From: Longibacter salinarum | Lineage (GTDB): Bacteria; Bacteroidota; Rhodothermia; Rhodothermales; Salinibacteraceae | Direction of reading: 5' to 3' | Assembly: GCF_002554795.1 (NCBI RefSeq) | Contig: NZ_PDEQ01000002.1 | Coordinates: forward strand, 620,001 to 684,000 | DNA: 64,000 nt | Shown here: one piece after another, positions 41,227 to 58,458 of the stretch | Position numbering within the stretch: the first letter of the stretch is position 1 | How the letters are laid out: every line of letters starts with the position of its first letter | Notes under the pieces: model-generated | The model's database searches: none | Told to the model about the DNA's origin: nothing | Seen by the model: the letters and a program-made list of their open reading frames with translations, nothing else | Made by a program: the position numbers and the translations under genes

Positions 41227-41718
41227 TCACCAGCCGATGGTACCTGCACCGCCCTTGAACGGCCCCACCACGGAGTCGGTGATCCATCCGCCATAGAAAT
41301 CGCCTTCCTGGGCGCGTGCTTCCTCTTCGCCGACGAAGCACGCGTCCATTTTACTGGCGTAGAAGGAGACGTGGTCTTCGAGGACCGCATACGGCGAACG
41401 AGGCGACGGGTATGCCCATGCGGCCTGCCGGGCCGTCCGGTCCCCGACGGTGATGTCGTAGTAGACTGCCCGACCCTTGTACTCGCACATGGATGTGCGA
41501 TTGAGGCGATGGAGGTAGTCCATCTCGATATCTCCGGGAGGGAGATAGTATGTCGGCGGGTGGCTGGTCTCCAGGATTCGGTACGCCTGCGTCGTATCCG
41601 CGATCGTCTCGCCGTTGAAGACGACACGGAGACGCTGTTCGACCGGCTCAATAGCCGGTGGTCTGGGATAATCCCAAACCGATTCCTGATTCGGCCCGGG
41701 TTCGATTCGGCGAGTCAT
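41227..41718 (-). CDS. DUF427 family protein
   Basis: A 163-residue protein with the DUF427 pattern: VWDYPRPPAIEPVEQRLRVVFNGETIADTTQAYRILETSHPPTYYLP-type N-terminal half and the CEYKGRAVYYDITVGDR...AWAYPSP...LEDHVSFYASKMD signature. The family forms small beta-rich folds of unknown function. It lies 38 bp downstream of the tyrosine ammonia-lyase gene on the same strand and may share its transcript. Nothing in it suggests a role in chromophore synthesis. Confidence 0.88.
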   Translation of the reverse strand: MTRRIEPGPNQESVWDYPRPPAIEPVEQRLRVVFNGETIADTTQAYRILETSHPPTYYLPPGDIEMDYLHRLNRTSMCEYKGRAVYYDITVGDRTARQAAWAYPSPRSPYAVLEDHVSFYASKMDACFVGEEEARAQEGDFYGGWITDSVVGPFKGGAGTIGW

Positions 41719-41756: not shown

Positions 41757-43304
41757 TCAGTCCGGCGAATCCTCGTCGGCGTTCACGGAGAGCCAGTGTT
41801 GCGCCAGCCGATCGATTTCTGCGCGAAGGGGACGATCTTCGACGATGGGTTCGACGCTGGGCATCCAGGGGGGAACCGGTGACGCAGGTCCGGTTGCACG
41901 ATCGGCGTCACGCAAGTGGGTGAGCTGCGCTAGTGCGATTCCGAGAACCGACAGAATTGGCGCGAGTCGCTCGGTCTGCTCGTACGCGGTTCTACCGGAT
42001 AACGTGCCCATCGACACGACGTCCTGGTTATCCCCATTCGTCGGAATGGAGCTCGTCGCGGTCATCTGCGCGTGATGACGAAGCTCCGAGACGAGCGCCG
42101 TGGCGGTAATCTGTGCGCCTGCAAGACCACTGGTTGCGCCCGGTGTCCATGCCAGAAGGAGAGGGGCGTCTCCGTTCCTCGCCGGCGTAAGGAGCAGGTC
42201 AATTTGTCGCTCTGCGAGCACCCCCATCTGTGTTATCGCTGCGTTGAGAGCGTCGGCAGCCAGGGCGATCTGCTGTCCCTGGAAGTTACCGCCGTGAAGG
42301 ACCGCGGGGTCGTCCCCGCTGATCACGACGGGGTTGTCGTTCACCCCGTTGAGTTCGGTCTCGATGATGTTCTTGGCGTAGGCGATTTGATCGCGACAGG
42401 CACCGATGACCTGAGGGGCGCAACGAATCGAATATGGCTCCTGCAGCGGTCGGTTATCGGAACGCTGAAACGGTCCATGGCGGAGAGCTTCGGTCCGAAT
42501 AGAGGCAGCGGAATCGCACTGTCCGTTGTGGCCACGGGCCGCGTGAAGCCGCGGGTCGAGCGCCTGCAGTTCACATCCGAGGAGGCGGTACATCCAGCCG
42601 GTTAGACGTTCGAGGTGGCGGACGATGCGCCGCATTCGTGCGAGCGCCAGGGCCGCGTACGCCGTCATGAATGCTGTACCGTTGACCAATGCCAGCGCAT
42701 CACGACCGTCGAGATCGAGCGGCTCGATGCCTATACGGTTTAGACTGTTCTCAGCCGGTTCGATCGATCCATCTGCACGCAGCACCCGGCCTGTACCGGT
42801 CATGACCCGTGCAGCGTGTGCGAGGGGCGTCAGGTCACCGCTCGCGCCGACGGAGCCGATCTCCGGGATCGCAGGTGTGATCCCGTGTTCGATCAGAGAC
42901 GCGAAGCGCTCCAGAGCCGTGAGTCGGATCGCAGAATATCCCTGCGCGAGCGATTGAAGCCGAGCGATGCACATCGCCCGAGCGACTTCGCGGGAGGCCA
43001 GCGCACCCGAGCCGGTCGACAGATGAGCCAGAAGGCCTGCGCCGTGCAGCGTGCCGCCGCTTTCAGCCGATTGGAAATCGACGAGGGGGCCGAAGCCCGT
43101 CGTCACTCCGTAAACTTCGTCGCCACGCTCACGGGCGCTCTCCAGCGCCGCCCGCGCATCGCGAAGGCTATGCTGTGCCGCATCGGTTAGCTGTAGAGTC
43201 AGGCGCTTCGTTTGCGCGGCCGACTCCAGCTCCTCACACGTCAACGAGACATCAGGGCCGAGCGTAAGAGAATGAAGATCCGCGGGAGAGGCACCGGTCG
43301 ACAT
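41757..43304 (-). CDS. tyrosine ammonia-lyase (chromophore biosynthesis for PYP)
   Basis: Aromatic ammonia-lyase of 515 residues predicted to convert L-tyrosine to p-coumarate. The MIO cofactor triad Ala154-Ser155-Gly156 lies in GSVGASGDLTPLAH, and the catalytic Tyr is in VYGVTTGFGP (Tyr65). The substrate-selectivity pair is His94-Leu95 (LLAHLSTG). His-Leu is the tyrosine-selective pair of the Rhodobacter enzyme; histidine lyases have Ser-His and phenylalanine lyases Phe-Leu. No hut genes are near. It starts 9 bp after the stop of the ligase gene on the same strand, forming a tight two-gene unit with a PYP gene just upstream, as in other PYP loci. Confidence 0.9.
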   Translation of the reverse strand: MSTGASPADLHSLTLGPDVSLTCEELESAAQTKRLTLQLTDAAQHSLRDARAALESARERGDEVYGVTTGFGPLVDFQSAESGGTLHGAGLLAHLSTGSGALASREVARAMCIARLQSLAQGYSAIRLTALERFASLIEHGITPAIPEIGSVGASGDLTPLAHAARVMTGTGRVLRADGSIEPAENSLNRIGIEPLDLDGRDALALVNGTAFMTAYAALALARMRRIVRHLERLTGWMYRLLGCELQALDPRLHAARGHNGQCDSAASIRTEALRHGPFQRSDNRPLQEPYSIRCAPQVIGACRDQIAYAKNIIETELNGVNDNPVVISGDDPAVLHGGNFQGQQIALAADALNAAITQMGVLAERQIDLLLTPARNGDAPLLLAWTPGATSGLAGAQITATALVSELRHHAQMTATSSIPTNGDNQDVVSMGTLSGRTAYEQTERLAPILSVLGIALAQLTHLRDADRATGPASPVPPWMPSVEPIVEDRPLRAEIDRLAQHWLSVNADEDSPD

Positions 43305-43313
43305 GCGGAAATA

Positions 43314-44927
43314 CTAAGACGAAGAAGAGGGAGCGGAGGAAGAAGACGACGCTTCCTTCGAAAACGTTCGTTGTAAGAAGGCGTCCATTTCTGTACGGGC
43401 AACGGTTCCTTTCGGGGTGCGATGCCAGTCTTTTTCAGGTATAGACCGAACCTCGATTAAGCGCTGACTAATCGAACCGATCGCATTACAAATGGCTTCT
43501 CTGGATGGAGCCGTAGAATTCGGTTCTTTTAGTCGAATGGCGAGTGCGACGTTATCACCGTCTGGACTGAACAGGAAGGCTTCTTCGATCGAAGTGAACC
43601 GCTGCTTGACGACGCTTTCCACGTGACCCGCGGCGACGAGGCGACCGTTCGAGAGCTTGAACGTGTTGTCCGTTCGGCCCCGGAAGAATAGGTCATCGCC
43701 TTTCCGGAGGGCGAGATCTCCGGTTGCAACTCGACGGTCCGGATCCTCACGTTCTAATTGACCCTCTCGCCAGACCCCGATACAGGCATTGTCGCCGGAA
43801 AAGTGAAGCTCGCCGTCATCCGCGATGTCGACGCAACAGCCAAGCGGTTGTCCAAGGTAATTCGCCGCCCAGTGTCCGGGTGGACCCAGTGCGATCCCCG
43901 GAGATGCTTCGGTCTGCCCGTAGCCAGCGCGAAGAGACGTTCCGGAGAGGAGTTGAGCCAGGGATCCGGAGACCGGAGCTCCGCCGACGATGCCGCCATC
44001 GAGTGAGCACAACATGCCGGGACCGCCATCTGCGTCTGCGATGCGGTCGATGACGAGGGGAACGGCAGTGAGGTGCGTGGCTCCCCAGGCCCGGGCGAGG
44101 CGTAGCAATTCCTCGGGATCTCGGCCACCATTGGGGTCGCGTATGATTTCCGCTTCGGAGAGGAGGGCCGGCAGGAAGTCGAGAACGAGACCGAATGCAT
44201 GATCCCACGGCAAAACCGAAAGCGTCCGTGCATTCCGGAGGCCGAGCAGCGGCATGTGAGTCGCGAGAACCGATAGCACGTTTCGGTCCGAGAGGGCGAC
44301 CCAGGTTGGCGATCCTGTCGTGCCCGACGTGCTGAGAAGAAAGCGCACGTCCGGGGTCCGCGGGCCGGTCACGTCACGGAGAGACTTCGGTGGTTCGGCT
44401 GGCCCGGTGAGGCCTTCCGGACGCCATGTGTGCGGTGTTGCACAGGCCGACGTAGGGACACCGCACCGCATGCCCTGGTCGGTCACCGCTGCGCGGGCAT
44501 CCATGGACGCCAGGTGCGCATCGATATCGGCCTCCGGGGGGAGCATGACGAGCGTCACTCCCTGCCAGAGCGCAGCGACAACCACCTGCGCGAACGCAGC
44601 GGAGGGCGACAGCGAAATCAGAAGGCGATCGCCCCGCTGAAGTCCCGCCTCACGGAAGGAGTCAAGCCAGAGTCGGGATCCGGTCCACAGGGACGCAGCT
44701 GGCGTGATCGTCTCGTCCGCTATGAGTGCAGGCAGAGCACGGTCGCGCAACCGGTCATAAAGTAGCTCGTGCCACGGGTTCGATGCACCCTCCGCAGAAG
44801 AAGCCGATGAGCAAGCCGCTTCGTATGCGGAACGGATCGCACCGGTATCACCATCGCATTCAGATGGCGTACGGCGACCCCAGCAAGAGTCTGAAGAAGG
44901 CTTAATGGATCCGTTTCGGCCGATCAT
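43314..44927 (-). CDS. adenylate-forming ligase, probable p-coumarate:CoA ligase
   Basis: ANL-superfamily enzyme of 537 residues, predicted to activate p-coumarate as p-coumaroyl-CoA, the donor for PYP. Motifs: ATP loop LLSTSGTTGSPTW, LPWDHAFGLVLDFLPALL, YGQTEASPG, ATGDLALRKGDDLFFRGRTDNTFKLSNGRLV and the C-terminal catalytic-lysine region RTPKGTVARTE. The ATP loop is unusual: the Pro-Lys-Gly of most relatives is Pro-Thr-Trp. The function rests mainly on its place between PYP and tyrosine ammonia-lyase. MIGRNGSIKP (44927) is the preferred start; the ATG at 45023 would add 32 residues. Confidence 0.8.
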   Translation of the reverse strand: MIGRNGSIKPSSDSCWGRRTPSECDGDTGAIRSAYEAACSSASSAEGASNPWHELLYDRLRDRALPALIADETITPAASLWTGSRLWLDSFREAGLQRGDRLLISLSPSAAFAQVVVAALWQGVTLVMLPPEADIDAHLASMDARAAVTDQGMRCGVPTSACATPHTWRPEGLTGPAEPPKSLRDVTGPRTPDVRFLLSTSGTTGSPTWVALSDRNVLSVLATHMPLLGLRNARTLSVLPWDHAFGLVLDFLPALLSEAEIIRDPNGGRDPEELLRLARAWGATHLTAVPLVIDRIADADGGPGMLCSLDGGIVGGAPVSGSLAQLLSGTSLRAGYGQTEASPGIALGPPGHWAANYLGQPLGCCVDIADDGELHFSGDNACIGVWREGQLEREDPDRRVATGDLALRKGDDLFFRGRTDNTFKLSNGRLVAAGHVESVVKQRFTSIEEAFLFSPDGDNVALAIRLKEPNSTAPSREAICNAIGSISQRLIEVRSIPEKDWHRTPKGTVARTEMDAFLQRTFSKEASSSSSAPSSSS

Positions 44928-45165
44928 CTGCGTGGTGAACGAAAAGTCTGTCGTCGCGGCACGGTATCCAACCCGTCGAGTCCGTGACGTGAGCGTGGCG
45001 AGTGGCTGCCGAGCGGGTGCCACAGAACGAGTTCGGCTGCACCGTTCCGTCCATGCGTTGAAGACGATGGTGCCGTTTAGGATTCGTCGTTTTCGTTGCG
45101 CCTCTCGTCTGTTACAGCAGTTTGTCAGAGCAATGAGAGACGAGCGGGCTCCTGGCTGACGACGA

Positions 45166-45639
45166 TCAGAATTTCTGGACGATGATCCAGTTGTTGCTTT
45201 CTTCGTCCCTATACATGTGTACTTCTACGAGCGTCGGACGCATCTTGTACGTGTAGGTATATGTGAACGACTCGTCCAACTCGCCCCGCCGCACGCCCTT
45301 CTTGAAGCGCCCGCGGAAGAGTCGGTTGTTTGTGCACGGCGCGACCTGCGTGAAGAAGTTGCGTCCTTCCGCCTCTTCCTTTTTTACACCACTGAGGTCA
45401 GATTCCCACTGGTTGAAGAATTCGACGATGCCCTCGTCATCTACCTTGATGACGCCGAAGTCCGTCTGGTCCAGGGTGTCTTTGTCCTGATGTCGGAGTT
45501 TCTCGCCGAGCTGATCGTCTTCGAAGTGGAGTTCGGTGTCATTCACGGTATCATCGGACGCGTGTCCGTTCGAGGCATTCATAGATTCGTCAGTATCTGC
45601 GTCGAGGAAGGGGTATTTCTTGTTTTTATCGTCTGCCAT
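45166..45639 (-). CDS. pyp: photoactive yellow protein 1
   Basis: Blue-light receptor of the PYP/PAS family, 157 residues: a 55-residue acidic extension (YPFLDADTDESM..., GEKLRHQDKD) and then the whole PYP core. Aligned to the Halorhodospira protein, the chromophore cysteine (Cys69) is Cys102 in QVAPCTNNRLF, Glu46 is Glu79 and Met100 is kept in YKMRPT. Tyr42 is Phe75, Thr50 is Ser83 and Arg52 is Val85. The protein should bind p-coumarate by thioester, but with a changed hydrogen-bond network. The ligase and lyase genes that make the chromophore lie directly downstream. The coiled-coil PYP gene lies 139 bp upstream on the same strand. Confidence 0.93.
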   Translation of the reverse strand: MADDKNKKYPFLDADTDESMNASNGHASDDTVNDTELHFEDDQLGEKLRHQDKDTLDQTDFGVIKVDDEGIVEFFNQWESDLSGVKKEEAEGRNFFTQVAPCTNNRLFRGRFKKGVRRGELDESFTYTYTYKMRPTLVEVHMYRDEESNNWIIVQKF

Positions 45640-45778
45640 GGTCTAAATCGGTCGATAGAAAGGCTGCCGGTGGTGCGGCAGACCTCGTCTTTGCGCTATG
45701 TAATCAACGGAGGAAGGTGGGGAGCCGCAAGTGCACGTGCATCAATAGACTTTTGATCTGAGGTATTTTTTCCGAGCG

Positions 45779-47446
45779 CTAGCTGTTTAAGCGGCGAAGG
45801 AAAACCCAGTTGTTGCCAGTTCCCGTACGGTAGAGGTGGACGGCAAGATTGATGCTCGGCTCCGTCGGGTGTACGATGGTATACGGAAAACGTACATTTA
45901 AGTCGTCGTTTTCCACCCCGGACTTAAACCGTCCACGGAAGAGCGAATTGCTCGTTCCGGGCGCAAGCGAAAAGAAAAAGTTTCGGTCGACCAGAGACTC
46001 GCCGCGTGATCCATGTATGCCCGGAAGCGTCTTGCTGGCGGCATCGTTCGCGTAAAGCACGCGCCCCTCGTCATTCAAGCGCAGAACTCCAACGTCTAAA
46101 CGGTCCAGCTCGCTGTGGGGTAAATCCGAGAGACGGTTGAGGAGCGACGGGTCGACTACGTGGGGCGCGCCCTCGTCGGCGGTTGTGTTCGCCTGCTCAT
46201 CGCTACGACCGGCGTTCCCTGGTTCTTCCTGTTCTGCATATACATTCTTGAGCTGTTCCTCCAAGCTCTGTACCAGCTGGACAACGTGCTGAGGATCGGA
46301 TACGCCCAGTTCATTCTGAAACAGGTCCGTGGCCGACTCGGACGACATCGCATCGCGCCGCTTCTCTAGATTGATCTTCTCTTTGGCGAGCTCGTCCAAT
46401 TTGTCTTCCAGTTCCGCCAGTCGTGTAGCTTCCTCGGCGTCGCGGTCGTCAGAGAAGCCATGCTCCCGTTCCTCATAAAGCGTATCCAGTTGCGACTCCA
46501 TGCTTTCGATCATGGAGATCGCTTGATCGATACTCTCGATTCCCTGCTGCGACATCTTCTCACGATCGGCGTACAGGGCTTCCAGTTGCTGCTCCATGCT
46601 GGAGATCATGCCGATGACGCTCTCCGCGTCGTCGAGATTGACGCGTGTAAGTCGTTCGCGGGCCTCGTACAATTCTTCTAGCTGGCGGACGAGGCCGTTG
46701 ACCATTTCGACAACATCGCCCGGGTCGGATACGCCAAGCTCACGCTGCAACTTCTCTTCTCGTTCTGATAGCGCTCGACTGCCATCGCCGGAAGCGACCG
46801 GTAACGCAGACTGTTCGGCATCTCGGTTGGCGTACAGTTCGTCGAGTTGCGAGGCCAGCCCACGCACCATTTCGATGACTTCCTCCGACGACGTTACTCC
46901 GAGTTCGCGCTGTAGCCGCTCTTCCCGGGCGAGGAGGCGCTGCAACTGATCGAACGTATCCTCGTCTTCGAGTCCGGAGCTCTGCTCCTCAAGCCGTTCC
47001 TGCGCCTTTTTCTCCTCGTACAGCTCGTCGAGTTGTTTCTCCATGCTATCGACCATAGACAACGCGTCATCCACACTCGTCAGGCCCGCTTCAACGAGTG
47101 CTTCGTGCTGCGTCTCCAGAACTTCAATCCGGGAGAGGAGTCGCTTTATTTCTGTTGGGACTTCCTGCGGTTGGTCGACCTGCAGGAGGTTGAGGGTCGG
47201 CTCCCATGAGGCGACGCGATCCCGCAGTTGGTCGACGCGACGGTCGATTTTCTGGAGGAGGTCGAAGGCTTCACCTGTGTCGAGTGAGCGCGCCGCAACC
47301 TCGGCCGTCTCTTGCATCGAGTCGAGTTGTAACTCCTGCACGCGCTCCATCGCGGCGGCAGCATTTTCGACGTTCAGGATATCGCAGAGCTCGGCCCACC
47401 GTGCGTCACGTTCTAGATCGGATGAATGGGCGTCGTGAGAGGACAT
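45779..47446 (-). CDS. coiled-coil repeat protein with C-terminal cysteine-less PYP-like domain (short form)
   Basis: A 555-residue protein (start MSSHDAHSSDLERDARW). Residues about 15-420 are acidic coiled coil built from repeats with recurring SMExQLxxLY units (six copies, such as SMEQQLEALYADREK) and LGVSDPxxVVxMV units. No signal peptide or membrane segment. Residues about 435-555 align end to end with PYP (DVGVLRLNDEGRVLYAND, RNFFFSLAP, FRGRFKSGV, NWVFLRRL). The chromophore Cys is Gly497 (LAPGTSN), Glu46 is Ala and Tyr42 is Ala, so it cannot hold p-coumarate. I infer a scaffold whose PYP-like end serves protein contacts. It lies divergent from the multi-PAS kinase and upstream of pyp. 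Not a family I recognise. Confidence 0.85.
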   Translation of the reverse strand: MSSHDAHSSDLERDARWAELCDILNVENAAAAMERVQELQLDSMQETAEVAARSLDTGEAFDLLQKIDRRVDQLRDRVASWEPTLNLLQVDQPQEVPTEIKRLLSRIEVLETQHEALVEAGLTSVDDALSMVDSMEKQLDELYEEKKAQERLEEQSSGLEDEDTFDQLQRLLAREERLQRELGVTSSEEVIEMVRGLASQLDELYANRDAEQSALPVASGDGSRALSEREEKLQRELGVSDPGDVVEMVNGLVRQLEELYEARERLTRVNLDDAESVIGMISSMEQQLEALYADREKMSQQGIESIDQAISMIESMESQLDTLYEEREHGFSDDRDAEEATRLAELEDKLDELAKEKINLEKRRDAMSSESATDLFQNELGVSDPQHVVQLVQSLEEQLKNVYAEQEEPGNAGRSDEQANTTADEGAPHVVDPSLLNRLSDLPHSELDRLDVGVLRLNDEGRVLYANDAASKTLPGIHGSRGESLVDRNFFFSLAPGTSNSLFRGRFKSGVENDDLNVRFPYTIVHPTEPSINLAVHLYRTGTGNNWVFLRRLNS

Positions 47447-48144
47447 GGAGCGGAGAGAGGCTGTGAGCGAGCGGCCATCGGGAGATGGTGCGAACAACTT
47501 GCAAGCCGTTCGTATTCGCATCCAAAAATGGCCGTTCCCCGGACACCAATTCAATTTCTCAACCGTTACACCCGAGTCCGTTGTTCGGCTCCTGGCGATG
47601 TGGAGACGTAGAGGCCCTGACAATACCTCATTCGAGCTGCGAGCGGCCCCCCATTCGCGTCGCTGCGTCGCTCAACCGCGTCGGGTTCACCTGCTTCACG
47701 CGCCTGAATCCCGCCCGGTTCGCTCGCTCTCTATCATCGAAGCACGTTTTGTTAGGGCTTTTAACCTGATTCAGTGCTTTCCACGTGTCGGGCTGATATT
47801 GGGTTTAACCCTGCCCACTAGCTCCCGGACAGTTTGGATTTCAAACCGGAATGTCTTCGTAGGTCAACGAAAAACGGATCTCGTGCGTCTCATGCGTCCT
47901 GGAAACGAGACGTTATCGTCGAACATGACGCACTCACAAACTCCCATACCCACATACTCCCATCCATCTCAGAGCAGCCGCGCCTAGGAATGCTGAAATG
48001 ACACACGCTCCAATGAACGTGTCCGGTAGGTAGCCCTGCCCATTCACCTTTCTTTTAGCGGTTCTGAGCCAGTGGCCTTAAATTAAACGTCCAGTCTCCG
48101 TTCCGTCCTTTTCCTTTGCTCTGCCTCGTTTCTCTCTCCCGCCC
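47447..48144. other. divergent promoter region of the PYP cluster, no gene seen
   Basis: About 700 bp between the short coiled-coil PYP gene (minus) and the histidine kinase (plus). No credible frame. It must hold the promoters of both arms. The kinase start is uncertain, so part may be coding. Confidence 0.45.
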
Positions 48145-51100
48145 GTGGTACACTTGGACGTTGTAATTCCGTCTCATACGAATCTGGACGAGCGTTCTCG
48201 GTATCAGGAGAGCGACGTTGGCCTTTCGGCCTCTCTCGTTGCACGTGTTATTGTTGTTGCGGCGACATTGTGCTTTCTGGTGTTAGCGCCGGACGGAATC
48301 GAACATCTCGGCCTGTCGATGCTCGCGATGGTCGGTCTCTGTGCGAGTGCGGGTGACGATCAGTTTGATCGAAGCGGCGATGGGGTCCGGTCCGGTCGCA
48401 TGACACCGTACCCTGCTCCCGGACGTGGAGTGGACGGCGAATCGGGACCGTCCAACGACGACGAGGTGACTGATCTCGATACGTTGAGCCGCGACGAGCT
48501 GGAGGCGGCTCTTCGACGTGAGAGATCACTTTCGCAGGGGATCGTAAGCAGCCTGGACGGCCTGTTTGTGATGGTGAACGGTCGTGGGGAGGTGCTTCGG
48601 TGGAATGAGGCCTTTGCGAGTGCAGCGGGTCGAGATGGAGATCGTCTTCGCGGGCGCTCGCTGAATGACCTGTTTCCCGAAGTGGGGCGGCGTCTCGATG
48701 TGATCGTACAGCGGGCCATGGCCGAGGGGCGGGCGACGATGCAGGCCGAACTGGTGGGAAACACGGGTCGGCGAGCACATTCGTTACGGCCCCATCGTCC
48801 CGTTCCCTACGTTCTGGCCGCGACGCGCGTGGTGGACACGGAGGACCGCGTAAGCGTCACCGGGACCCGCCTCGACGAGCAGAGCGCTGTGCGCCAGGCA
48901 CTGCGTGAACACGAGGAACGATATCACCTCATTGCTGAGCATGTTGCGGACGTCATTTCCCGACACGCTCCCGATACGACGTGTCTGTATGCTTCACCCT
49001 CTACGACCACGCTCGTCGGATATGACCCGGAAGATATTGTGGGCCGGCGGATCGTGGATCTCGTCCATCCCGAGGATCGGTCCACTATTCGAAAGATTGT
49101 TTCGGCGGTTTTAGACGGGGAGGTCGTAATTGACCGACTCCGTCTTCGTCATGCGAAAGGGCACTATATCTGGGTCGAGGTCACCAGTCAACTACGATTC
49201 GACCCCGCGACGGGGGCTCCACTCGATGTCATCGCGTCCACACGCGACGTAACGGATCGCGTCCATGCCGAGCAAGCATTGCAGGAAAGCGAGTCTCGCT
49301 TTCGCCAGATGGCAGAGAACGTGGAAGGCGTCTTCTTCCTCTCAACGAGATACGAGTTTTTGTACGTCAATCCCGCGTACGAAAGTGTGTGGCGCCGCTC
49401 GACCGATGAACTTCATCGTCAGCCGTTATCGTTCATTCAGCCGGTGCACCCGGATGATCGCGACCAAGTCTGGAAGGCATTGCACGATCTCTGGGAGTTA
49501 GAGCCTGACGAATCACTCTCGACGGATTTCAGGATCGTGTATCCGAGCGGCGAGGTCCGATGGATTCGATCGGTTTGCTCCCGCGTGCCCATGAGCGTCG
49601 GTCCGGACCGCTTCGCCGGCTACGCGGTGGATATCACAGAGCAGAAGACGCAGGAGGAGGCGACACGCCAGAGTGAGGAGCGCTGGCGCCGGCTCGTAGA
49701 GTCGCACATGGATCCGATCATGATCAGTATCGACGGACAGATCCGCTATATTAACCCGAGTGGTGCAGAGCTTTTCGGTGGACGTCCAGACGAGCTGATT
49801 GGCTACGACTTAATTGACCTGGTGGAGCCGTCCTTTCGAGAGGAAGTGACGAAGCGAGCGGCAAACGTGTACGCCGGCCAGAATACAGAACCGTTCGAGC
49901 ATCGCGTTCGGCGACTGGATGGAGATGTGCGAATTGTGGTTGCGCAGTCCGTCGCGATCCAGTATGACGGTCAGCCGGCGGCTCAAACTGTGGTGCGTGA
50001 CGTGACGGACTGGCGGCGTGCTCAGAGTAAGCTCGAGTACCGCGTGCTGATGGAAAACCTGATCGTCGATCTATCGACGCGGTTGATTGACACCGGGTCG
50101 GAGATCACGGACGAGACGATCGAAAATGCCCTTGGCCGGATCGGTCCGTTCGTCGGTGCGGATCGGAGCTATGTATTCCTCGCATCGGAAGATGGCACCG
50201 ACTTCCATTATGTGTATGAGTGGTGCGCTCCTGGCATTTCGGCGCAGAAGGAAACGGCTCCCCACGTCCCGGTTGAGAAGTACCCCTGGTTTCACGAGCA
50301 ACTCAGTCAGATGAGACCGGTCCACATCCCTCGTGTGAACGAGCTACCGCCGGAGGCCGGTGCGTTTCGTCGTCTGCTTGAGCCCCAGAACATCGAATCG
50401 CTCGTCGTTGTCCCGATGACGGACGGCAACCGGCTGGCTGGGTTTGTCGGATTTGACGCTGTTCAGCAGGCGCGATCCTGGGAAGAAGAGACCATCATGC
50501 TCCTCCGCGTGCTCGGGGATACGTTCGCGAACTCGCTCGCCCGGATGGAAACAGAGCAGGCCCTTCGAGAGCGAGAGGCGCAATACCGATCGGTTGTGGA
50601 GAATGTGCGGGACATCGTCTTCCAGACGGATACGCACGGACGATGGACCTTTTTGAATCCAGCCTGGGAAGACGCGACCGGGTTTTCCGTGGAGGAGAGC
50701 CTCGGGCAGCACTTCGATGAGCAGATTGAAAGCGAGTACCTGGAGGAAGGAAACGACACCGTGTCGATACTGATGGGCGAGGAGGAGGGGCGCTACGAAG
50801 TGAAGTTGCATGGTCGAAAGGGGACGCGGTGGATGGCCCTCTTTGCTCAAGCCCTCTACGACGAAGACGGGAATCGATCGGGCGTCGCGGGAACGCTCCA
50901 TGATATCACGGAACGGAAAGAGATGGAGCGGAAGACGCGCGAGGCACTTCAGCGAGAGCGAGAATTGAATAAGCTGAAGTCCAGTTTCGTGAGCATGGTG
51001 TCGCACGAGTTTCGGACGCCGCTTTCCACGATTCGAAGCTCGTCGGAAATGATCGCGCGCTTTATCGAGCAAGAACAAGATGAGAAGCGCGACAAGTATC

Positions 51101-51732
51101 TATCTCGAATTCGTCGCCAGGTGGATCGGATGACCCGCTTGCTCGGAGATGTCATAACGACGAGTAAATTGGACGCGCAAAACAACGGCCCCGACCTTTA
51201 TCCGACGGATCTGCGCTATTTCATGCGGGAGATCGGGGAAGAGATGCGCTCGCACTTCGGTCAGAATCGTCAACTCAACATCCAGTGGAGCAACATTCCA
51301 GATCGGTTGCCTGTCGACCGGGATCTTCTCCACCATATCGCTGGCAACTTAATTTCAAATGCTCTGAAATACAGCCCCGACGATGAGCCCGTCGTTGTGA
51401 ACCTGGCGGTGGAAGACGAATGTCTACTGGTTCGTGTTCGAGATCGGGGAATCGGGATTCAGGCCGCCGATGAGCCGCACCTCTTTCAGGCGTTCTACCG
51501 TGGCGAAAACGTCGGTAAAAAAGAAGGCGTGGGCCTCGGAATGACGATCGTACGGCGGGCCATCGATGTCTACGGCGGAAACATTAGCTGGGCTGACGCG
51601 CCAGGAGGAGGGACGACGTTTGTCGTCGAACTTCCCCTTGCCGAAGAGCCGGAATCTGGCTCACGGAGCGATTCTGAAAAACATGAGATGTCGACACCCG
51701 AATGCGAGGATGGAAAACAGGAGGTCGATTAA
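48145..51732 (+). CDS. multi-PAS/GAF sensor histidine kinase in the PYP cluster
   Basis: A 1195-residue kinase from a GTG start; the first 90 residues (one hydrophobic stretch near 30-50) are poorly supported, and an ATG such as that at 48400 is possible. Order: PAS at about 130-245, 255-375, 383-500 and 508-628, GAF at about 655-800, PAS at about 810-935, HisKA with phospho-acceptor His954 (MVSHEFRTPLSTIR), HATPase from about 1059 (NLISNALKYSP, RDRGIGI, GVGLGMTIVRRA). It resembles large signal-integrating hybrid-type kinases but has no receiver. It lies between the two PYP blocks and 413 bp before an OmpR-type regulator on the same strand, its likely partner. A link to PYP is positional only. 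Confidence 0.88.
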   Translation: MVHLDVVIPSHTNLDERSRYQESDVGLSASLVARVIVVAATLCFLVLAPDGIEHLGLSMLAMVGLCASAGDDQFDRSGDGVRSGRMTPYPAPGRGVDGESGPSNDDEVTDLDTLSRDELEAALRRERSLSQGIVSSLDGLFVMVNGRGEVLRWNEAFASAAGRDGDRLRGRSLNDLFPEVGRRLDVIVQRAMAEGRATMQAELVGNTGRRAHSLRPHRPVPYVLAATRVVDTEDRVSVTGTRLDEQSAVRQALREHEERYHLIAEHVADVISRHAPDTTCLYASPSTTTLVGYDPEDIVGRRIVDLVHPEDRSTIRKIVSAVLDGEVVIDRLRLRHAKGHYIWVEVTSQLRFDPATGAPLDVIASTRDVTDRVHAEQALQESESRFRQMAENVEGVFFLSTRYEFLYVNPAYESVWRRSTDELHRQPLSFIQPVHPDDRDQVWKALHDLWELEPDESLSTDFRIVYPSGEVRWIRSVCSRVPMSVGPDRFAGYAVDITEQKTQEEATRQSEERWRRLVESHMDPIMISIDGQIRYINPSGAELFGGRPDELIGYDLIDLVEPSFREEVTKRAANVYAGQNTEPFEHRVRRLDGDVRIVVAQSVAIQYDGQPAAQTVVRDVTDWRRAQSKLEYRVLMENLIVDLSTRLIDTGSEITDETIENALGRIGPFVGADRSYVFLASEDGTDFHYVYEWCAPGISAQKETAPHVPVEKYPWFHEQLSQMRPVHIPRVNELPPEAGAFRRLLEPQNIESLVVVPMTDGNRLAGFVGFDAVQQARSWEEETIMLLRVLGDTFANSLARMETEQALREREAQYRSVVENVRDIVFQTDTHGRWTFLNPAWEDATGFSVEESLGQHFDEQIESEYLEEGNDTVSILMGEEEGRYEVKLHGRKGTRWMALFAQALYDEDGNRSGVAGTLHDITERKEMERKTREALQRERELNKLKSSFVSMVSHEFRTPLSTIRSSSEMIARFIEQEQDEKRDKYLSRIRRQVDRMTRLLGDVITTSKLDAQNNGPDLYPTDLRYFMREIGEEMRSHFGQNRQLNIQWSNIPDRLPVDRDLLHHIAGNLISNALKYSPDDEPVVVNLAVEDECLLVRVRDRGIGIQAADEPHLFQAFYRGENVGKKEGVGLGMTIVRRAIDVYGGNISWADAPGGGTTFVVELPLAEEPESGSRSDSEKHEMSTPECEDGKQEVD

Positions 51733-52145
51733 CCATGAGCCCCCGATGCCTTGCCCTGTATACTGACGGCACTGATTCGTTGGCGCTGCGAATAATCGTA
51801 ACATCGGGATGTGTACCGCCATGTGACGGGACATTATTTTCGATCGAACAACTGAACACACGTTCGCGGCGGAATTCTGGCGTTTCGTGGGTATCCGTAT
51901 TGAAAATGCGGAATTCGTTTCCGTTCTTACCTTAAATATCGCCACTCAACGGTCCACCGGCCCGTCCTTCATTTCTGTCCCACTACTGGGGTATTGAAAC
52001 CCTACTCAGAGCTAGGTCAGATCGTCGTACGATGTTGTGTTCTGCTCTTCTGGTATTATGTTCTGACCCCATCGGACGAAGGGCCGGCGATTCCCACGCC
52101 GGGTGAAGATGCACGCCCTTCCTTACAGATGATCGCTCCCCTCGC
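51733..52145. other. intergenic region between kinase and response regulator, no gene seen
   Basis: 413 bp. No credible frame, terminator or RNA family. Its length suggests the regulator has its own promoter. Confidence 0.4.
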
Positions 52146-52829
52146 ATGAAACTTATACTTCTTGTAGAAGACGAGCCCGAACTTGCTGACACGCTGGTCG
52201 ACGGGTTAGAAACACACGGCTACCGCGTGCACCATACCGAGGATGCAGAGGAGGCCCTGGTCCAGACGGCCGTCCATCGGTATGACGCCATGATTGTCGA
52301 CTGGATGTTACCTGGGATGAACGGCCCAGAGCTCATTCAGGAGCTCCGTGAGAAGGATTATGTTGCTCCCGCGTTGATGTTAACGGTTCGTGATAGCATT
52401 GAGGATCGCGTGCATGGTCTCGAAAGCGGCGCGGACGATTACCTGACGAAGCCGTTCTCCTTTGAGGAACTGCTCGCGCGAGTCCGTGCGCTCCTTCGAC
52501 GTCCGTCGGAGTGGTCTGCGCTCGATGAATTGCGGATTGGTCCGCTCCACATCGACACGGCCACGCGAAAGGTGGCGATTGAAGACGCACCAGTCGAGCT
52601 GCGTAAGAAGGAATTCGATTTGCTTCGGCTACTCGTTGAGCGGGCACCGGCTGTCGTCTCCCGGACCATGATTGCTGAGCGGGTCTGGGGATCTGAGTAT
52701 GTATCCGACAATGCGATCGACGTAACGATCTCCGGGCTGCGTCATAACATCCAGGACGCGCAGGAGGAAAAGGAAAACATCCGGTTAGAGACGGTCCGAG
52801 GCGTTGGATACCGCCTTCACGCGGAGTAA
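52146..52829 (+). CDS. OmpR/PhoB-family response regulator
   Basis: A 227-residue transcription regulator. The receiver domain (1-120) has the acidic pair in LVEDEPE, phospho-acceptor Asp52 in MIVDWMLPGMNG, Thr in MLTVRDS and Lys in YLTKPFSFEELLAR. The C-terminal winged-helix domain (about 130-225) shows KEFDLLRLLVERAPAVVSRTMIAERVWG and the end VRGVGYRL. Probable partner of the multi-PAS kinase upstream. Ends in a strong terminator. Targets are unknown; the flanking PYP genes are obvious candidates. Confidence 0.94.
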   Translation: MKLILLVEDEPELADTLVDGLETHGYRVHHTEDAEEALVQTAVHRYDAMIVDWMLPGMNGPELIQELREKDYVAPALMLTVRDSIEDRVHGLESGADDYLTKPFSFEELLARVRALLRRPSEWSALDELRIGPLHIDTATRKVAIEDAPVELRKKEFDLLRLLVERAPAVVSRTMIAERVWGSEYVSDNAIDVTISGLRHNIQDAQEEKENIRLETVRGVGYRLHAE

Positions 52830-52856
52830 ACCGCTCTCGTCCCGCATCAAAGAACG

Positions 52857-52894
52857 AACCCGCAGCCGGCTGACAGCCGACTGCGGGTTTTTTT
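52857..52894 (+). terminator. intrinsic terminator of the response regulator
   Basis: A stem of about 15 pairs between AACCCGCAGCCGGCTG (52857-52872) and CAGCCGACTGCGGGTT (52874-52889), followed by a run of seven or more T. Confidence 0.93.
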
Positions 52895-52995
52895 ATGACA
52901 GTAATTCTGGGCAGTTAGACGTTGTCCCGGTACCTGGCCCAACCCGTGAGAAATCTACCGTTGTGGAAGTGGGGGCAGATGACGAAAATGAGATA

Positions 52996-53487
52996 CTATC
53001 GCTTCTGGACCATGACCCAGTTATTGTTCTGGGCGTCGCGATAGAGCCGCACATCGACGAGGGTCGGCCGCATCTTGTACGTAAACGTATAGGTAAACCG
53101 CTCATCCATGGAGCCGGACTGAACGCCTTTCTTGAAGCGGCCCTGGAAGATGCGGTTGTTGCTACATGGAGCCAGATGGGTGAAGAAGTTTCGGCCCTGT
53201 GCGTCCTCTGGCGCGACGCCCGAAAGTCCAGACTCGTAGCGGTTATAGAACTCTACGTACCCCTCGTCGTCAACCTTGACGATTCCAAAATCAGCGCTAT
53301 TGAGCTGATCGCGATCCGCCTCGTGCAGCTTTTCCCCGATATCATCGTTGTCGAAGTCCAGAAATGATCGGGACCCAGAGCCTTCATTTGATGTCTCGTC
53401 CGATCGGTCATCCTTCGACGGGGATGAATGAGTGAGGCCACGATCTTTTAGAAAGGAATAGAGGTCTTGCGATGAAGGGCTCGTCAT
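52996..53487 (-). CDS. photoactive yellow protein 2
   Basis: A PYP paralogue of 163 residues. A 45-residue Ser/Asp-rich N-terminus carrying SQDLYSFLKDRG precedes a linker GEKLHEADRDQL and the PYP core. Chromophore-pocket residues: Cys108 (LAPCSNNRIF, equals Cys69), Tyr81 (Tyr42), Glu85 (Glu46), Ser89 (Thr50), Val91 (Arg52), Met in YKMRPT (Met100). Of the three cysteine-bearing paralogues this is the only one that keeps both Tyr42 and Glu46, so it is the most likely to behave like the classical photoreceptor. It is last in a minus-strand row of three PYP-type genes, 124 bp after PYP3. Confidence 0.92.
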   Translation of the reverse strand: MTSPSSQDLYSFLKDRGLTHSSPSKDDRSDETSNEGSGSRSFLDFDNDDIGEKLHEADRDQLNSADFGIVKVDDEGYVEFYNRYESGLSGVAPEDAQGRNFFTHLAPCSNNRIFQGRFKKGVQSGSMDERFTYTFTYKMRPTLVDVRLYRDAQNNNWVMVQKR

Positions 53488-53611
53488 GGGACGTAGACGT
53501 TGATCAAAAAGGGTAGCTCAACATTCCTTCAAGGCGTAGAGATATTGCATGAGCGGACGAACGACGCGCGAGTCGGGTCCGATACACTACACCAGATCGT
53601 GAGCGACCGCG

Positions 53612-54139
53612 TCACTGCTTTTGAACAAGAATCCAGTTCTGACCGTCGTCATCTCGATACAGACGGACGTCTACCAAGGTCGGACGCATCTTGTACGTGT
53701 AGGTATAGGTGAAGCGCTCATCCAACTCGCCTTTTCGGATCCCTTCTTTGAAGCGTCCGCGGAAGAGTCGATTATTGCTGCAAGGGGCAAGCTCGCTGAA
53801 AAAGTTTTGCCCTTCTGCATCGCTTGGGGCCACGCCGCTCAACTCCGACTCGTACTGGTTAAAAAATTGCACGACGCCGTTATCGTCGATACGGATGATA
53901 CCAAAGTCGGCGTCGTTCAGCGCATCTGGGTCGGTGTGCCGAAGCTTTTCTCCAACGTCGTCTGTATCGAAGGACAGGTTCGAGTCCGATTCTTTCGCCG
54001 CGGACTGAGCGTCGTCTTCAAAGTCGTTTACGGCGCGGAGGTGGGAGCCGTTCTCCTCCGAATCGGATGACTCTTCGTCCTCAGAAATATACTCCTTTGA
54101 TTGCAAAAACGAGTACAGATCGCTAGAGGGGTCGGGCAT
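53612..54139 (-). CDS. photoactive yellow protein 3
   Basis: A PYP paralogue of 175 residues (start MPDPSSDLYSFLQSKEY; an upstream ATG at 54238 would add a Cys-rich 33-residue piece of doubtful value). The acidic N-terminal part of about 60 residues shares DLYSFL with PYP2 and GEKLRHTD with PYP1. Pocket residues: Cys120 (LAPCSNNRLF, equals Cys69), Phe93 (Tyr42), Glu97 (Glu46), Ser101 (Thr50), Val103 (Arg52), Met in YKMRPT. It resembles PYP1 at the Tyr42 position. It lies between the long coiled-coil PYP gene (126 bp upstream) and PYP2 (124 bp downstream) on the same strand. Confidence 0.91.
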   Translation of the reverse strand: MPDPSSDLYSFLQSKEYISEDEESSDSEENGSHLRAVNDFEDDAQSAAKESDSNLSFDTDDVGEKLRHTDPDALNDADFGIIRIDDNGVVQFFNQYESELSGVAPSDAEGQNFFSELAPCSNNRLFRGRFKEGIRKGELDERFTYTYTYKMRPTLVDVRLYRDDDGQNWILVQKQ

Positions 54140-54265
54140 TTCTGGTCGGGGGCTTGAGCGGATAAGGGCGCGAACAAGTGAACAGCGGGAGCAAAAGAAG
54201 ACATCGTCTGGCGAGGAAAGCAGGGGCGGAGTCGGCACGGTACGGGAATTCCCCCTGTCCTCGAG

Positions 54266-57200
54266 CTACATCGCTCGAAAGAGAAGCCAGTGGGCGTCGC
54301 TGTTGGGCTTAGAGTGCAGGTGAACCACGAGCACCTTCGGACCCTGACCCGGGCTGATGAAGGTGTACGGGAACCGGGCGTCCATCGCACCCTGACTGAT
54401 ACCCTCCTTGAAACGACCAAAGAACAGGTTATTGTTCGTGCTGGGCGCGAGGTCGAAGAAAAAGTTCTTGCCGAGGATCGCCGTCTTGCTGTCGTGCTTT
54501 TTGAGGCCAGGCAAGGCAAGCCCAGCTTGGTTCACGAACTGAACGACGCCCGTCTCACTCAAGCGAACGACACCAAAATCCAGGTCGTCAAGCTGCTCAC
54601 TGCCAAGATGTTCAAGCCCGGCGATAACGTCCTGGGGGACAAAGGCGGGAGCGGCGTCAATGAAGAATCGGGTTTGCTCCTCTTCGGCCTCTTGTCTGCC
54701 GGCAGGCGCCGAACTGGCCGGATCCGTCAAGCGTGCGGCTGGCTCGTCGTCCGGCTCGGACTCATCGGCGTGCGCAGATTCGAGGCGGGCGACGAGGGAC
54801 AAGATTTCGTCGACGTCGGAGACACCCAGTTCTCGCTCCAGGCGTTCGAAGCGTTGTCGGCACGCGGCAGAGGCCTGGGCAAGCTCGGACCGCTTCTGCT
54901 CGAGATGCTGAATTCGATTTGCTGCTTCATCCGCACTCCCAAAGCCAAGTTCGAAGAGACGTTCTTTCTCTCCATAGAGATCACGGAGCTGTTGCTCCAT
55001 GCTCTCCAGCATGGTCGTAGCGTCCTGTTCGGCCGTGTGCTCCTCAATGAAGGCCTGCATGTCGTCGTTCATATCTTCGACGGAGGCCCGGTCACCATAC
55101 AGGTCATCCAGCTGTGTTGCCAGACCTTCGACCATTTCGATGACGTCATCTGCTGTCGAAACGCCAAGTTCGCGATCGAGCTTCTCGCGTTCAGCATACA
55201 GCGCTTCGAGCTGCTGGAAGGTGTCCTGACCGTCGTCGAGCGCATTGGCGCGCACTGTGGTGTTCTCTCGTTGCTGATATAGCTCTTCGAGCTGCTCCTT
55301 CATGCTCGCAATCATAGACGCTGCGTCATCGACGCTCTCGACGCCGATCTGGTCCAGAGCTTCGCGATCCTGCTCGAAGCGGGTGATCTCAGCATTCATT
55401 TCGCGAGCCATTTCGGCAATCTGCTCAGCGTCTTCCCGGGTACGAACGCCGAGCGCTTCTTCGATGGCATCCAACTGTTTAGAGGCATCACCATACGCGT
55501 CGCGTTCTTGGTGGAGGGAGGCGAGTTGCTCGTCCATGCTGCGGATCATCGCGAGTACATCGCGCGAGGAGGACATCGCGGTCTCTCCTGGCATGTCCGA
55601 CTCCGTTGACAAGAGCTCGCTCATCTCCTGATGCAGGCTTCGAACGGACGCAGTCAGTTTTCGCGCCTCGTCCGGTGTATTGACGCCAAGGATTGACTGA
55701 ACGGATTCGTACTCGTCGGCAGCTTTTCTCGTGGAATCTCGATTCTCGTAAAGATCGACAAGCTGTTCCTCCATGCTGTCGATGATCTGGAGGGCTGAGT
55801 CAACCGTGAGACCCGCTTCGACAAGGCGCTCTTGCTCCTGAGTCAAGCGTTCCAGCTGACTGCTCATAGAGTGAACCAGATCGGCAAGGTCGTGCGCTTC
55901 TTCGGGCGTCTCGACGCCGAGGATGTCTAGCACTTCGCGTTCGGCCTCGTCCTTCACGGTGCTGACGCTTCCGTCGCCAGAAGCAGACAACGTCGGATCA
56001 GCGAGGATGTCGGCGTCCACGCGTCCTTCCGCCCGGTCCTGATAGAGGTCAACGAGCTGTTCTTCCATCGTGTCGATCATGGCGACAGCCTGCTCGGCCG
56101 TCAGGCCGGCCTCGTCGAGCGTCTCCTGTTCTTCCGTAAGCCGCTCAAGTTGGTCCGTCATGTTCTCGACCAGTCCGGCGAGTTCTTCGGCTTCATCGAC
56201 GGAGTCGACCCCCAGGACCTTCCCGATGGGGGCCGATGTGTCGTTCTCGCGCCCATTCTCAGCGGTAGGGTCCGCGTCCTGCGCCTCGTAGAGATCAACG
56301 AGCTGCTCCTCCATGCTGTAAATCAGGTCGAGGAGGCTGGCGACATCCTGTACGGCAAGTTCATTTTCTATGCGGTCGTTGTCAGCCTGATACTGTCTGA
56401 TTTGCTTACCCATCGAGCGAACGGCCGCTTCGAGCTCGCGCGCTTCCGTTTCCGTCTCAATGCCCAGAATGGATCCGATGCTATCGGAGCCGGATGCTTC
56501 GAGATGTTCGTAAAGGTCAACAAGCTGATTCTCCATGCTGGAAATCATCTCCAGCAGACCGTCGGCGCTACGTAAACCGGTTTCTTCGCTAAGGCGCTCC
56601 CGCTCCGCGTGATAGGCCTGGACACGATCGCCGAGCGACGTCACCATTTCTGCCAGGCTTCGTGCATCATCGACCGTCTGGATTCCAAGAACGTCCGTAA
56701 CTTCTTGCGGAATGTCTTGTACCTCCGCGCTCTCTAACCACTCGTCCAACGCGTTCTGGAGAGAGACAACGTTGGCTTCGATGATGGACAACAGGTCTGC
56801 GAGGTCCTCCGGATCGTCGGTTGCGACGTCAGGGGTGTCGGTTGTGTTCAGGATGTCGCGCAATCGAAGATTGATATCCTGAACGGACTGAACGAGGTCT
56901 TCGGCTTCGCCAATCGAGGCGACGCCGACGATGTTGCGGATGGCGGTTGCGGCATGGAAGACCGACGTGTCGGGCTTCGAGTCGCTCTCCTCGATCTTTT
57001 CCTGCAGCACCTTTATTTCGTCGAGGGCTTCAGATGCCTCGTTGAACCCAGCCTCCACCAGGGCCTCTTTCTCGTGGTAGAGGTTTTCCAGCTGTCGATT
57101 CATCCCCCGAACGCGCTGGACGCCTTCTTCGACGCTCGTCACGCCCAGTGCTTCGAGTAATTTTTCAGTTTCGCGGTGGAGTTCCTTGAATGCCGTTTCG

Positions 57201-57505
57201 ACTCCACCTTCGTCCTGCCCCTCAAGCTGCTCGACCAACTGAGCATTGCGGTCGCGGAGTTTCTGCAGACGCTCGTGCATCTCGCGAAAGACTTCCTCCA
57301 CCTCCGAAATGGTGACGAAGCTTTCTTGCGGACGCGTCGACTCTTCATCGATGCGGTCCATATTCTTCTTCAACGTCTGCACCCGAGGGAGGACCTCTTT
57401 AGGGTCAGATGTGCCGAGGACCTCGCAGAGCGAAGACCACTGGTTGGCGAGCCACTCGGGGGGAGGGGAGGATGCCGCCGCGTCAGAATCTTGTCGTTCA
57501 GCCAT
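54266..57505 (-). CDS. giant coiled-coil repeat protein with C-terminal cysteine-less PYP-like domain (long form)
   Basis: A 1079-residue protein (start MAERQDSDAAASS). Residues about 20-930 consist of roughly 90-105-residue acidic helical repeats, each opening with an LGVxTxxEAxxLA-like motif (eleven can be counted) and containing SMEEQLVDLYxxRD (for example four near-identical copies between about 330 and 620). No signal or membrane segment. Residues 960-1079 are a complete PYP-like domain (DFGVVRLSETGVVQFVNQ, KNFFFDLAP, FFGRFKEGI, HWLLFRAM). The chromophore Cys is Ser1022 (LAPSTNN), Glu46 is Gly and Tyr42 is Val, so it is not photoactive by itself. Probable paralogue of the short form, with about twice as many repeats. 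It should form long rods; the scaffold function is inferred. Confidence 0.87.
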   Translation of the reverse strand: MAERQDSDAAASSPPPEWLANQWSSLCEVLGTSDPKEVLPRVQTLKKNMDRIDEESTRPQESFVTISEVEEVFREMHERLQKLRDRNAQLVEQLEGQDEGGVETAFKELHRETEKLLEALGVTSVEEGVQRVRGMNRQLENLYHEKEALVEAGFNEASEALDEIKVLQEKIEESDSKPDTSVFHAATAIRNIVGVASIGEAEDLVQSVQDINLRLRDILNTTDTPDVATDDPEDLADLLSIIEANVVSLQNALDEWLESAEVQDIPQEVTDVLGIQTVDDARSLAEMVTSLGDRVQAYHAERERLSEETGLRSADGLLEMISSMENQLVDLYEHLEASGSDSIGSILGIETETEARELEAAVRSMGKQIRQYQADNDRIENELAVQDVASLLDLIYSMEEQLVDLYEAQDADPTAENGRENDTSAPIGKVLGVDSVDEAEELAGLVENMTDQLERLTEEQETLDEAGLTAEQAVAMIDTMEEQLVDLYQDRAEGRVDADILADPTLSASGDGSVSTVKDEAEREVLDILGVETPEEAHDLADLVHSMSSQLERLTQEQERLVEAGLTVDSALQIIDSMEEQLVDLYENRDSTRKAADEYESVQSILGVNTPDEARKLTASVRSLHQEMSELLSTESDMPGETAMSSSRDVLAMIRSMDEQLASLHQERDAYGDASKQLDAIEEALGVRTREDAEQIAEMAREMNAEITRFEQDREALDQIGVESVDDAASMIASMKEQLEELYQQRENTTVRANALDDGQDTFQQLEALYAEREKLDRELGVSTADDVIEMVEGLATQLDDLYGDRASVEDMNDDMQAFIEEHTAEQDATTMLESMEQQLRDLYGEKERLFELGFGSADEAANRIQHLEQKRSELAQASAACRQRFERLERELGVSDVDEILSLVARLESAHADESEPDDEPAARLTDPASSAPAGRQEAEEEQTRFFIDAAPAFVPQDVIAGLEHLGSEQLDDLDFGVVRLSETGVVQFVNQAGLALPGLKKHDSKTAILGKNFFFDLAPSTNNNLFFGRFKEGISQGAMDARFPYTFISPGQGPKVLVVHLHSKPNSDAHWLLFRAM

Positions 57506-58020
57506 CAGATTCGGTAGAGGTGCGCGGAAAGTAGGTGGGAGGTCAGGGGCCGACTTGCACCCTGCGGTATAGAAGAACAGAGACGAATGCGTTGGATCAG
57601 GGCGCGCGACCAGGCTTCGCGACGACACGCGAATGGGCTACGCCGTCAATCCAAGCATCCGGTGGGATACTCCTCAAATGGTTCGATAGTGAGGTCGATC
57701 CCGAGACGCCAGAATCAGGCTGACGTCTACGCGTAGGGTACATTTTTATCAAAAAACATGCCCGATGCCAGAGTAACGATTGAATGATGTCTAGCAACGC
57801 GCGGATTTGTCGCTATATCCAGGTGTATCCGTTACGGTCTTCTTCGATGTTGGATCGGACGATGGACTGTAATTAAGTCGGTATGTGTGCTCTGGGCAGA
57901 GAATACGTAGAATCTTGCACAACGCGGACCGTGTTTGTTGGCCTGGATTTGACAGATAGCAACAGAAGGCAGATTTGTCTCTCTGGCACCGCGCACTCAA
58001 TTCGATACCCTGTACTCAAA
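57506..58020. other. divergent intergenic region, no gene seen
   Basis: 515 bp between the long coiled-coil PYP gene and the next plus-strand gene. Both frames extend into it but without family support or composition expected of coding sequence. Confidence 0.4.
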
Positions 58021-58458
58021 ATGTCAGCAGCCGCAGTCGACTCAAAAGGAAAAGTAGCAACCATTCATTCGAAGATTGAGTCGGCCCTTCGTGGCGAGGT
58101 CGATGATAATTGGGACATCGTTCTGGACGATTGGGCCTCTGCCGCACCATCGCAGCGAAAGGCGGTGCGAGCGTATGTGTCTGGCCTGCGAAACCGGATG
58201 TACCGGACCTTGATGGAGATCGACTCGATCGAAGAGTTGGAACGCGGTGTCGCCATCCAGTACGTTGAGGTCAAGGCACACTGGATGATGTTGAACACGC
58301 AAATTCAGCATCAGACGGATCGCGACGGACGTGCGGCGGACGATCTGATTTACCGCGCGACATGCGTCAGTCTGATCGTCCAGGCGCTCGAGCCGCTTCT
58401 CACTCAGACACGCGTCGACTCCCTGACGAACTTTCTCGCCGAGCCGTTCGATGAGTAA
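58021..58458 (+). CDS. hypothetical helical protein next to the PYP cluster
   Basis: A 145-residue soluble, mainly helical protein (start MSAAAVDSKGKVATIHSK) that I do not recognise. It has one Cys, several Trp (NWDIVLDDW, AHWMM) and no membrane segment. The frame is open 138 bp upstream, but that part is Cys-rich and poorly acidic, unlike coding sequence here. Acidic composition of the shorter form fits the proteome. It faces away from the long coiled-coil PYP gene, and the 820 bp after it hold no supported gene. Confidence 0.6.
   Translation: MSAAAVDSKGKVATIHSKIESALRGEVDDNWDIVLDDWASAAPSQRKAVRAYVSGLRNRMYRTLMEIDSIEELERGVAIQYVEVKAHWMMLNTQIQHQTDRDGRAADDLIYRATCVSLIVQALEPLLTQTRVDSLTNFLAEPFDE

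Follow-up and report, generated by a model that had tools for sequence, protein, structure and literature searches.

A PYP locus of Longibacter salinarum with three putative receptors and two coiled-coil proteins ending in a Cys-less PYP domain

PYP is among the photoreceptors most studied biophysically. Several described systems can be set beside the locus reported here. The pyp-pCL-TAL operon of Halorhodospira halophila (PMC12826048) likewise has PYP followed by a ligase and a lyase, with the same pigment residues, whereas Longibacter carries a coiled-coil gene with a Cys-less PYP end before PYP, three PYPs and clade-B sequences. The Salinibacter ruber PYP Q2S0F2 (PMC12826048) comes from the same organism family and clade and shares Ser50, and in the Salinibacter-like genomes G014 and G015 a gene named here O191 lies divergent next to PYP, as at the Longibacter locus. 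In contrast to Longibacter, the Salinibacter type has a single PYP, no coil partner and many MCPs in those genomes. MCP-PYP fusions (PMC12826048) also place a PYP domain at the C-terminal end of a long coiled coil. There, the PYP domain of a chemoreceptor is the active photoreceptor, while the Longibacter coil is not an MCP and its PYP is predicted to be blind. PYP signalling is tied to chemotaxis proteins in the CheW-linked Ppr of Rhodocista centenaria (PMC2993699), and a similar link is suggested by O191-CheW fusions in other phyla; however, the domain organisation of Ppr differs, and the proteobacterial plasmid loci tested were without coil or O191. The Cys69-less Ppr-PYPs of methylobacteria (PMC9664959) share a PYP fold without the pigment Cys, but they are multidomain kinases with a proposed redox role, whereas the Longibacter coils also lose Tyr42 and Glu46 and have a partner PYP next door.

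TAL-ligase-PYP operons, several PYPs per genome, Cys69-less PYPs, MCP-PYP fusions and a link with gas vesicles are already on record (PMC12826048, PMC9664959 and PMC3646047). In the parts consulted of two recent surveys of the PYP family, neither a coil partner, nor a coil ending in a blind PYP, nor a protein like O191 is mentioned. According to PMC9664959, the downstream partner of the single-domain PYP was never identified, and PMC12826048 regards the signalling chain as an important gap.

The assembly of L. salinarum KCTC 52045 (G000) consists of 4,406,485 bases in 22 contigs. The window is a 64,000-nucleotide stretch of one of them, in which all the genes named in the original prediction were found at their positions:

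41227..41718, minus strand: DUF427 protein (PF04248), 38 nt downstream of TAL, which it adjoins in most relatives
41757..43304, minus strand: aromatic amino acid lyase (PF00221, 1.4e-134; MIO motif ASG)
43314..45023, minus strand: adenylate-forming ligase (PF00501, 2.4e-29; start uncertain)
45166..45639, minus strand: PYP1, 157 aa, with Phe42, Glu46 and Cys69
45779..47446, minus strand: ccS, 555-aa coiled coil with a C-terminal Cys-less PYP domain (about 45782-46204; A42, A46, G69; 56.6 bits)
48145..51732, plus strand: histidine kinase with PAS domains, GAF, HisKA and HATPase (profile matches)
52146..52829, plus strand: OmpR/PhoB-type response regulator (profile match)
52857..52889, minus strand: 15-bp hairpin between the regulator and PYP2 (consensus scan)
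52996..53487, minus strand: PYP2, 163 aa, with Tyr42, Glu46 and Cys69; N-terminal peptide DLYSFLK
53612..54139, minus strand: PYP3, 175 aa, with Phe42, Glu46 and Cys69; N-terminal peptide DLYSFLQ
54266..57505, minus strand: ccL, 1079-aa coiled coil with a C-terminal Cys-less PYP domain (about 54269-54691; V42, G46, S69; 67 bits)
58021..58458, plus strand: O191, 145 aa (the ORF opens at 57883), divergent from ccL and just outside the range of the original prediction
59283..60005, plus strand: intact gvpL/F (PF06386, 5.1e-36), the lone remnant of a gas-vesicle cluster

One minus-strand group runs from 47446 to 41227 in the order ccS, PYP1, ligase, TAL-type lyase and DUF427 gene, with intergenic gaps of about 139, 142 or more, 9 and 38 nt. 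The genes ccL, PYP3 and PYP2 form a separate minus-strand unit (57505 to 52996), of which the hairpin 3' of PYP2 is likely the terminator; it has the longest stem of a scan whose total count was not above that of shuffles. Between both groups lie the kinase and the regulator. This pair had been counted as part of the locus, and it is indeed present, although on the plus strand and as a unit of its own. Elsewhere in the window (21782-23377), an FAD-dependent desaturase-like protein starting with GAGFGGLAAAIRL was noticed by eye, possibly a carotenoid gene.

The three short PYPs retain Cys69, in agreement with what had been claimed for them, and also Asn43 and Ser50. They match TIGR02373 photo_yellow at 103-111 bits, below its cut-off of 143; this model misses most PYPs, matching only about 20% (PMC9664959). 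Judging by the pigment residues kept, PYP1-3, whose sequences are of clade B, are probably PYP photoreceptors. The whole genome holds exactly five PYP domains, those of PYP1-3, ccS and ccL, all at the locus. Such a number had been regarded as unusual; several PYPs in one genome do have precedents, more than one occurring in 16% of PYP genomes and five in Caballeronia SBC2 (PMC12826048). PYP2 (53437-53487) and PYP3 (54089-54139) start with the conserved DLYSFLK/Q peptide, followed by an acidic linker. The corresponding N-terminal peptide is NPYSYLRED in Salinibacter-type PYPs and KYPFLDAD in PYP1. From its sequence, this N-terminal PYP peptide looks like a docking motif that is not tied to the coil.

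The lyase displays the Lyase_aromatic fold and the MIO Ala-Ser-Gly and is most likely a tyrosine ammonia-lyase; its selectivity position, read by eye against the Rhodobacter TAL numbering, appears to be His-Leu. It scores below the HutH and aminomutase cut-offs, and no curated model reaches its own cut-off. PYP was found in 19 of the 27 genomes of the family, and a TAL orthologue with at least 54% identity in 15 of these 19. The ligase, a presumed p-coumarate:CoA ligase, accompanies PYP in 19/19 family genomes and is absent from all 8 without PYP, counts of co-inheritance within one family that are phylogenetically non-independent. The best 25 of its 46 NCBIfam matches comprise general adenylation/acyl-CoA ligase models only, all below cut-off, and the specific 4-coumarate-CoA ligase model is absent among them. 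In G206 (L068:5810-8905), ligase and lyase matches share one open frame of 1032 residues, an apparent ligase-TAL fusion.

The PYP-like C-termini ascribed to the two coiled-coil proteins were borne out by profile matches and by the fold. Both domains have AlphaFold models of mostly confident quality (blocks of about 70-90), which match PYP crystal structures with a target TM of about 0.83-0.88, above other PAS folds. Cys69, Glu46 and Tyr42 are all replaced in ccS and ccL, while Gly29, Phe62-63, Pro68, the LFxGRF stretch and Trp119 are still held. At the Rhodothermales loci examined, no PYP domain borne by a coil has Cys69. ccS and ccL cannot be PYP-type photoreceptors. In a domain tree of few columns and long branches, all 27 Cys-less domains stand apart from all Cys-PYPs, those of other phyla included, with 100/98 on the branch to the Cys-PYPs. 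The dN/dS of the Cys-less domains between Longibacter and G003 is 0.07-0.12, with dS saturated; the value for PYP3, taken in a wrong frame, was set aside. The lost residues, the separate branch and the purifying selection together indicate that these domains are old, maintained, pigment-free paralogues. A chance or pseudogene origin is ruled out by the residues, the tree and the dN/dS. No tandem DNA repeats were found as a source of the coils.

Synteny across relatives resolved the locus into two modules, which are separate in most of them: module A with the order coil–PYP1–ligase–lyase, and module B with coil–PYP–regulator. In G016 and G023 the distance between them amounts to hundreds of kb, and G001, G017, G019 and G020 have them on separate contigs. 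Both are joined, with the kinase between them, only in Longibacter and in its sister genome G003 (MAG GSL.Bin3), so the 16-kb unit is a junction, specific to this lineage, between two modules that are each conserved. The idea of one system thus survives in part: the 16-kb cluster as a whole is not conserved, but coil and pyp genes remain together. An outcome in which relatives keep only pyp, tal and ligase together, with the rest scattered, was not seen, as their coil genes remain beside pyp.

The separation in those six genomes, together with a kinase that is not conserved beside the modules, fits a reading in which the PYP1 operon, the two-component pair and the PYP2/3 operon are three independent units that share only the pigment supply. 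Against this reading stand the regulator, which lies beside module B in seven genomes (G000, G001, G003, G016, G017, G019 and G020), and the coil architecture common to both modules; we regard it as quite improbable. The kinase itself adjoins the locus in G003 and is near the ccS module in G001; none was seen beside it at other loci. As a universal partner the kinase was ruled out, not being beside the module in most relatives. For the output, the OmpR-type regulator is currently the strongest candidate.

The coils are built from a unit of 42 residues, 'ELLAEEEELLGELGVSSAEDALEMIESMEEQLEDLYEEKEAL'. Of 33 Cys-PYP genes at Rhodothermales loci, 25 are accompanied, within 3 kb and on their own strand, by a coil-PYP gene; all 25 have a coil gene upstream, and PYP1 of G016 has one on each side. 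Together with the pigment enzymes and the several PYPs, this tight linkage supports the original prediction in part. The eight PYP genes with no adjacent coil include those of six single-PYP Salinibacter-type genomes, which keep PYP and O191 without a coil beside PYP and show that the coil is not obligatory. The order coil-PYP-ligase-lyase, with homologous coil repeats, also occurs in G190 and G206, which belong to two further families of Rhodothermales. The G190 coil gene is apparently split over two contigs, and its joining is inferred. Coil-PYP genes with no PYP beside them were noted as well, one in G018 and two in G023 (L051:8748-10475 and L052:8522-10102), of which one adjoins O191.

An HMM built on 114 copies of the coil unit from the coils of the family was searched against 5773 ORFs of 24 loci (E<0.01). 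All 13 matches were either a same-strand coil gene flanking PYP or a coil carrying the Cys-less PYP. Eight of the 13 are in other phyla, where short coils of 44–258 aa have no PYP domain and precede PYP: 59-60 aa (two units) in four Kapabacteria/Ignavibacteria, 127 aa in Leptospiraceae, 146 aa in Planctomycetota, and 258 and 44 aa at two Sericytochromatia loci. A coil match was obtained by BLAST at one deltaproteobacterial locus, whereas six proteobacterial PYP plasmid loci had neither coil (1030 ORFs, same HMM) nor O191. The short PYP-less coils across phyla suggest that the coil predates its fusion with a PYP domain, that it partners PYP within clade B of the family and that the Rhodothermales enlarged it and joined to it the blind PYP. 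Since the coils of other phyla have no PYP domain, docking on the Cys-less domain cannot be the general mechanism.

Because the Cys-less domains are PYP paralogues, and methylobacteria have Cys69-less PYPs with a proposed redox role (PMC9664959), they might be non-photosensory sensors of redox state or a ligand, or dimerisation caps, their adjacency to PYP reflecting only a history of duplication. The coil/PYP pair, however, is kept in three families whose flanking genes differ, and a PYP-less coil also precedes PYP elsewhere, so that duplication alone does not explain the linkage; this explanation seems to us rather improbable.

The second companion, O191, has no Pfam match and no PDB relative, and its query against plasmids gave no match. 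Strong matches (E<1e-27 or so) were found in 21 of 245 Rhodothermia genomes, all 21 being PYP-positive; three further genomes of this set are PYP-positive without O191, and a weaker match occurs in three that are PYP-negative. In Salinibacter-like genomes O191 is divergent beside the single PYP. Outside Rhodothermia, O191 occurs in 7 of 8 PYP genomes. The order is PYP, O191, MCP in Planctomycetota. In Sericytochromatia O191 is fused to a CheW-containing protein after PYP, and on one contig of this group MCP-like, O191, coil and PYP genes follow each other on a single strand. At L106:4608-8157, on a Sericytochromatia contig, MCP-like, O191 and coil genes lie between two PYP genes. In a deltaproteobacterium, O191 forms a fusion with a stretch that has no match in Pfam, and a CheA-like gene is close by. 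Genomes of Kapabacteria/Ignavibacteria have both O191 and PYP, but at different places; six of a sample of 294 genomes of this class have O191, four of them known PYP carriers. Two genomes in the class of G249, G426 and G490, carry O191. By eye, O191 is directly upstream of an S41-like peptidase gene in L100-L103 of this group.

No MCP signalling domain was found in the L. salinarum genome, which excludes MCP phototaxis there. The bacterial family has been described as nonmotile (PMC6856283). Its PYP-positive genomes with coils have no MCPs except G019, and 4/6 of those without coils have 9-15, a contrast that mostly reflects one clade.

The gvpL/F gene has no gvpA counterpart in the L. salinarum genome. 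Clusters of gvpA/K/N/L-F adjoin module B in G001 and G023, a PYP fragment of G017 lies about 300 bp from gvpA, and homology of contig ends to the G001 cluster places a gas-vesicle cluster beside the corresponding genes of G003. PYP is also near gas-vesicle genes in Rhodobacter capsulatus and Loktanella (PMC3646047). Moreover, an extra coil-only gene after the last PYP was detected only in gas-vesicle-bearing relatives. All this could mean that the coils are structural or gas-vesicle scaffolds and that PYP controls buoyancy, module B being a light input to gas vesicles that decays in Longibacter after the loss of gvpA. Yet the module occurs without gvpA in G000, G016, G019, G020, G004 and G005, the gvp genes of G022 are away from its PYP, and coil and PYP occur in phyla where no gvp genes were seen next to them. 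We consider this account unlikely. The coil-only gene directly follows the last PYP at L043:7928-8722, L045:18061-18900 and L050:8542-9381 and is absent from Longibacter. The gvp-linked helix-hairpin-helix protein showed no likeness to the coil unit by eye.

The reading to which we lean, with slightly more confidence than doubt, is a clade-B PYP light-sensing system in which each receptor module has its own coil partner. From the observed gene content, residues, fold, gene order and co-inheritance, we infer the protein contacts, light response and output as follows. TAL and the ligase would make and activate p-coumarate for the three PYPs, and blue light would switch a short PYP. The switched or the unswitched form may then dock either on the coil proper or, through PAS-PAS pairing, on its Cys-less PYP end. 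The coil would alter its assembly after docking, and O191 and/or the kinase-regulator pair might relay the signal to gene expression.

A wider proposal is put forward more tentatively, as something less than an even chance. Clade-B PYPs of several phyla would have two undescribed dedicated partners, namely a coil whose gene lies immediately upstream (44 to >1000 residues) and the O191 domain. O191 would couple PYP to MCP/CheA/CheW complexes, or to another output in MCP-free lineages such as Longibacter. In Rhodothermales, the pigment-less PYP copy of the coil and the true receptor would form a light-dependent heterodimer.

Gene order and co-inheritance thus name two small, expressible candidate partners of PYP, and the blind PYP paralogue of Rhodothermales is a possible built-in binding module. 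With candidates named, the old question of the PYP partner becomes directly testable, and the answer could yield new optogenetic parts.
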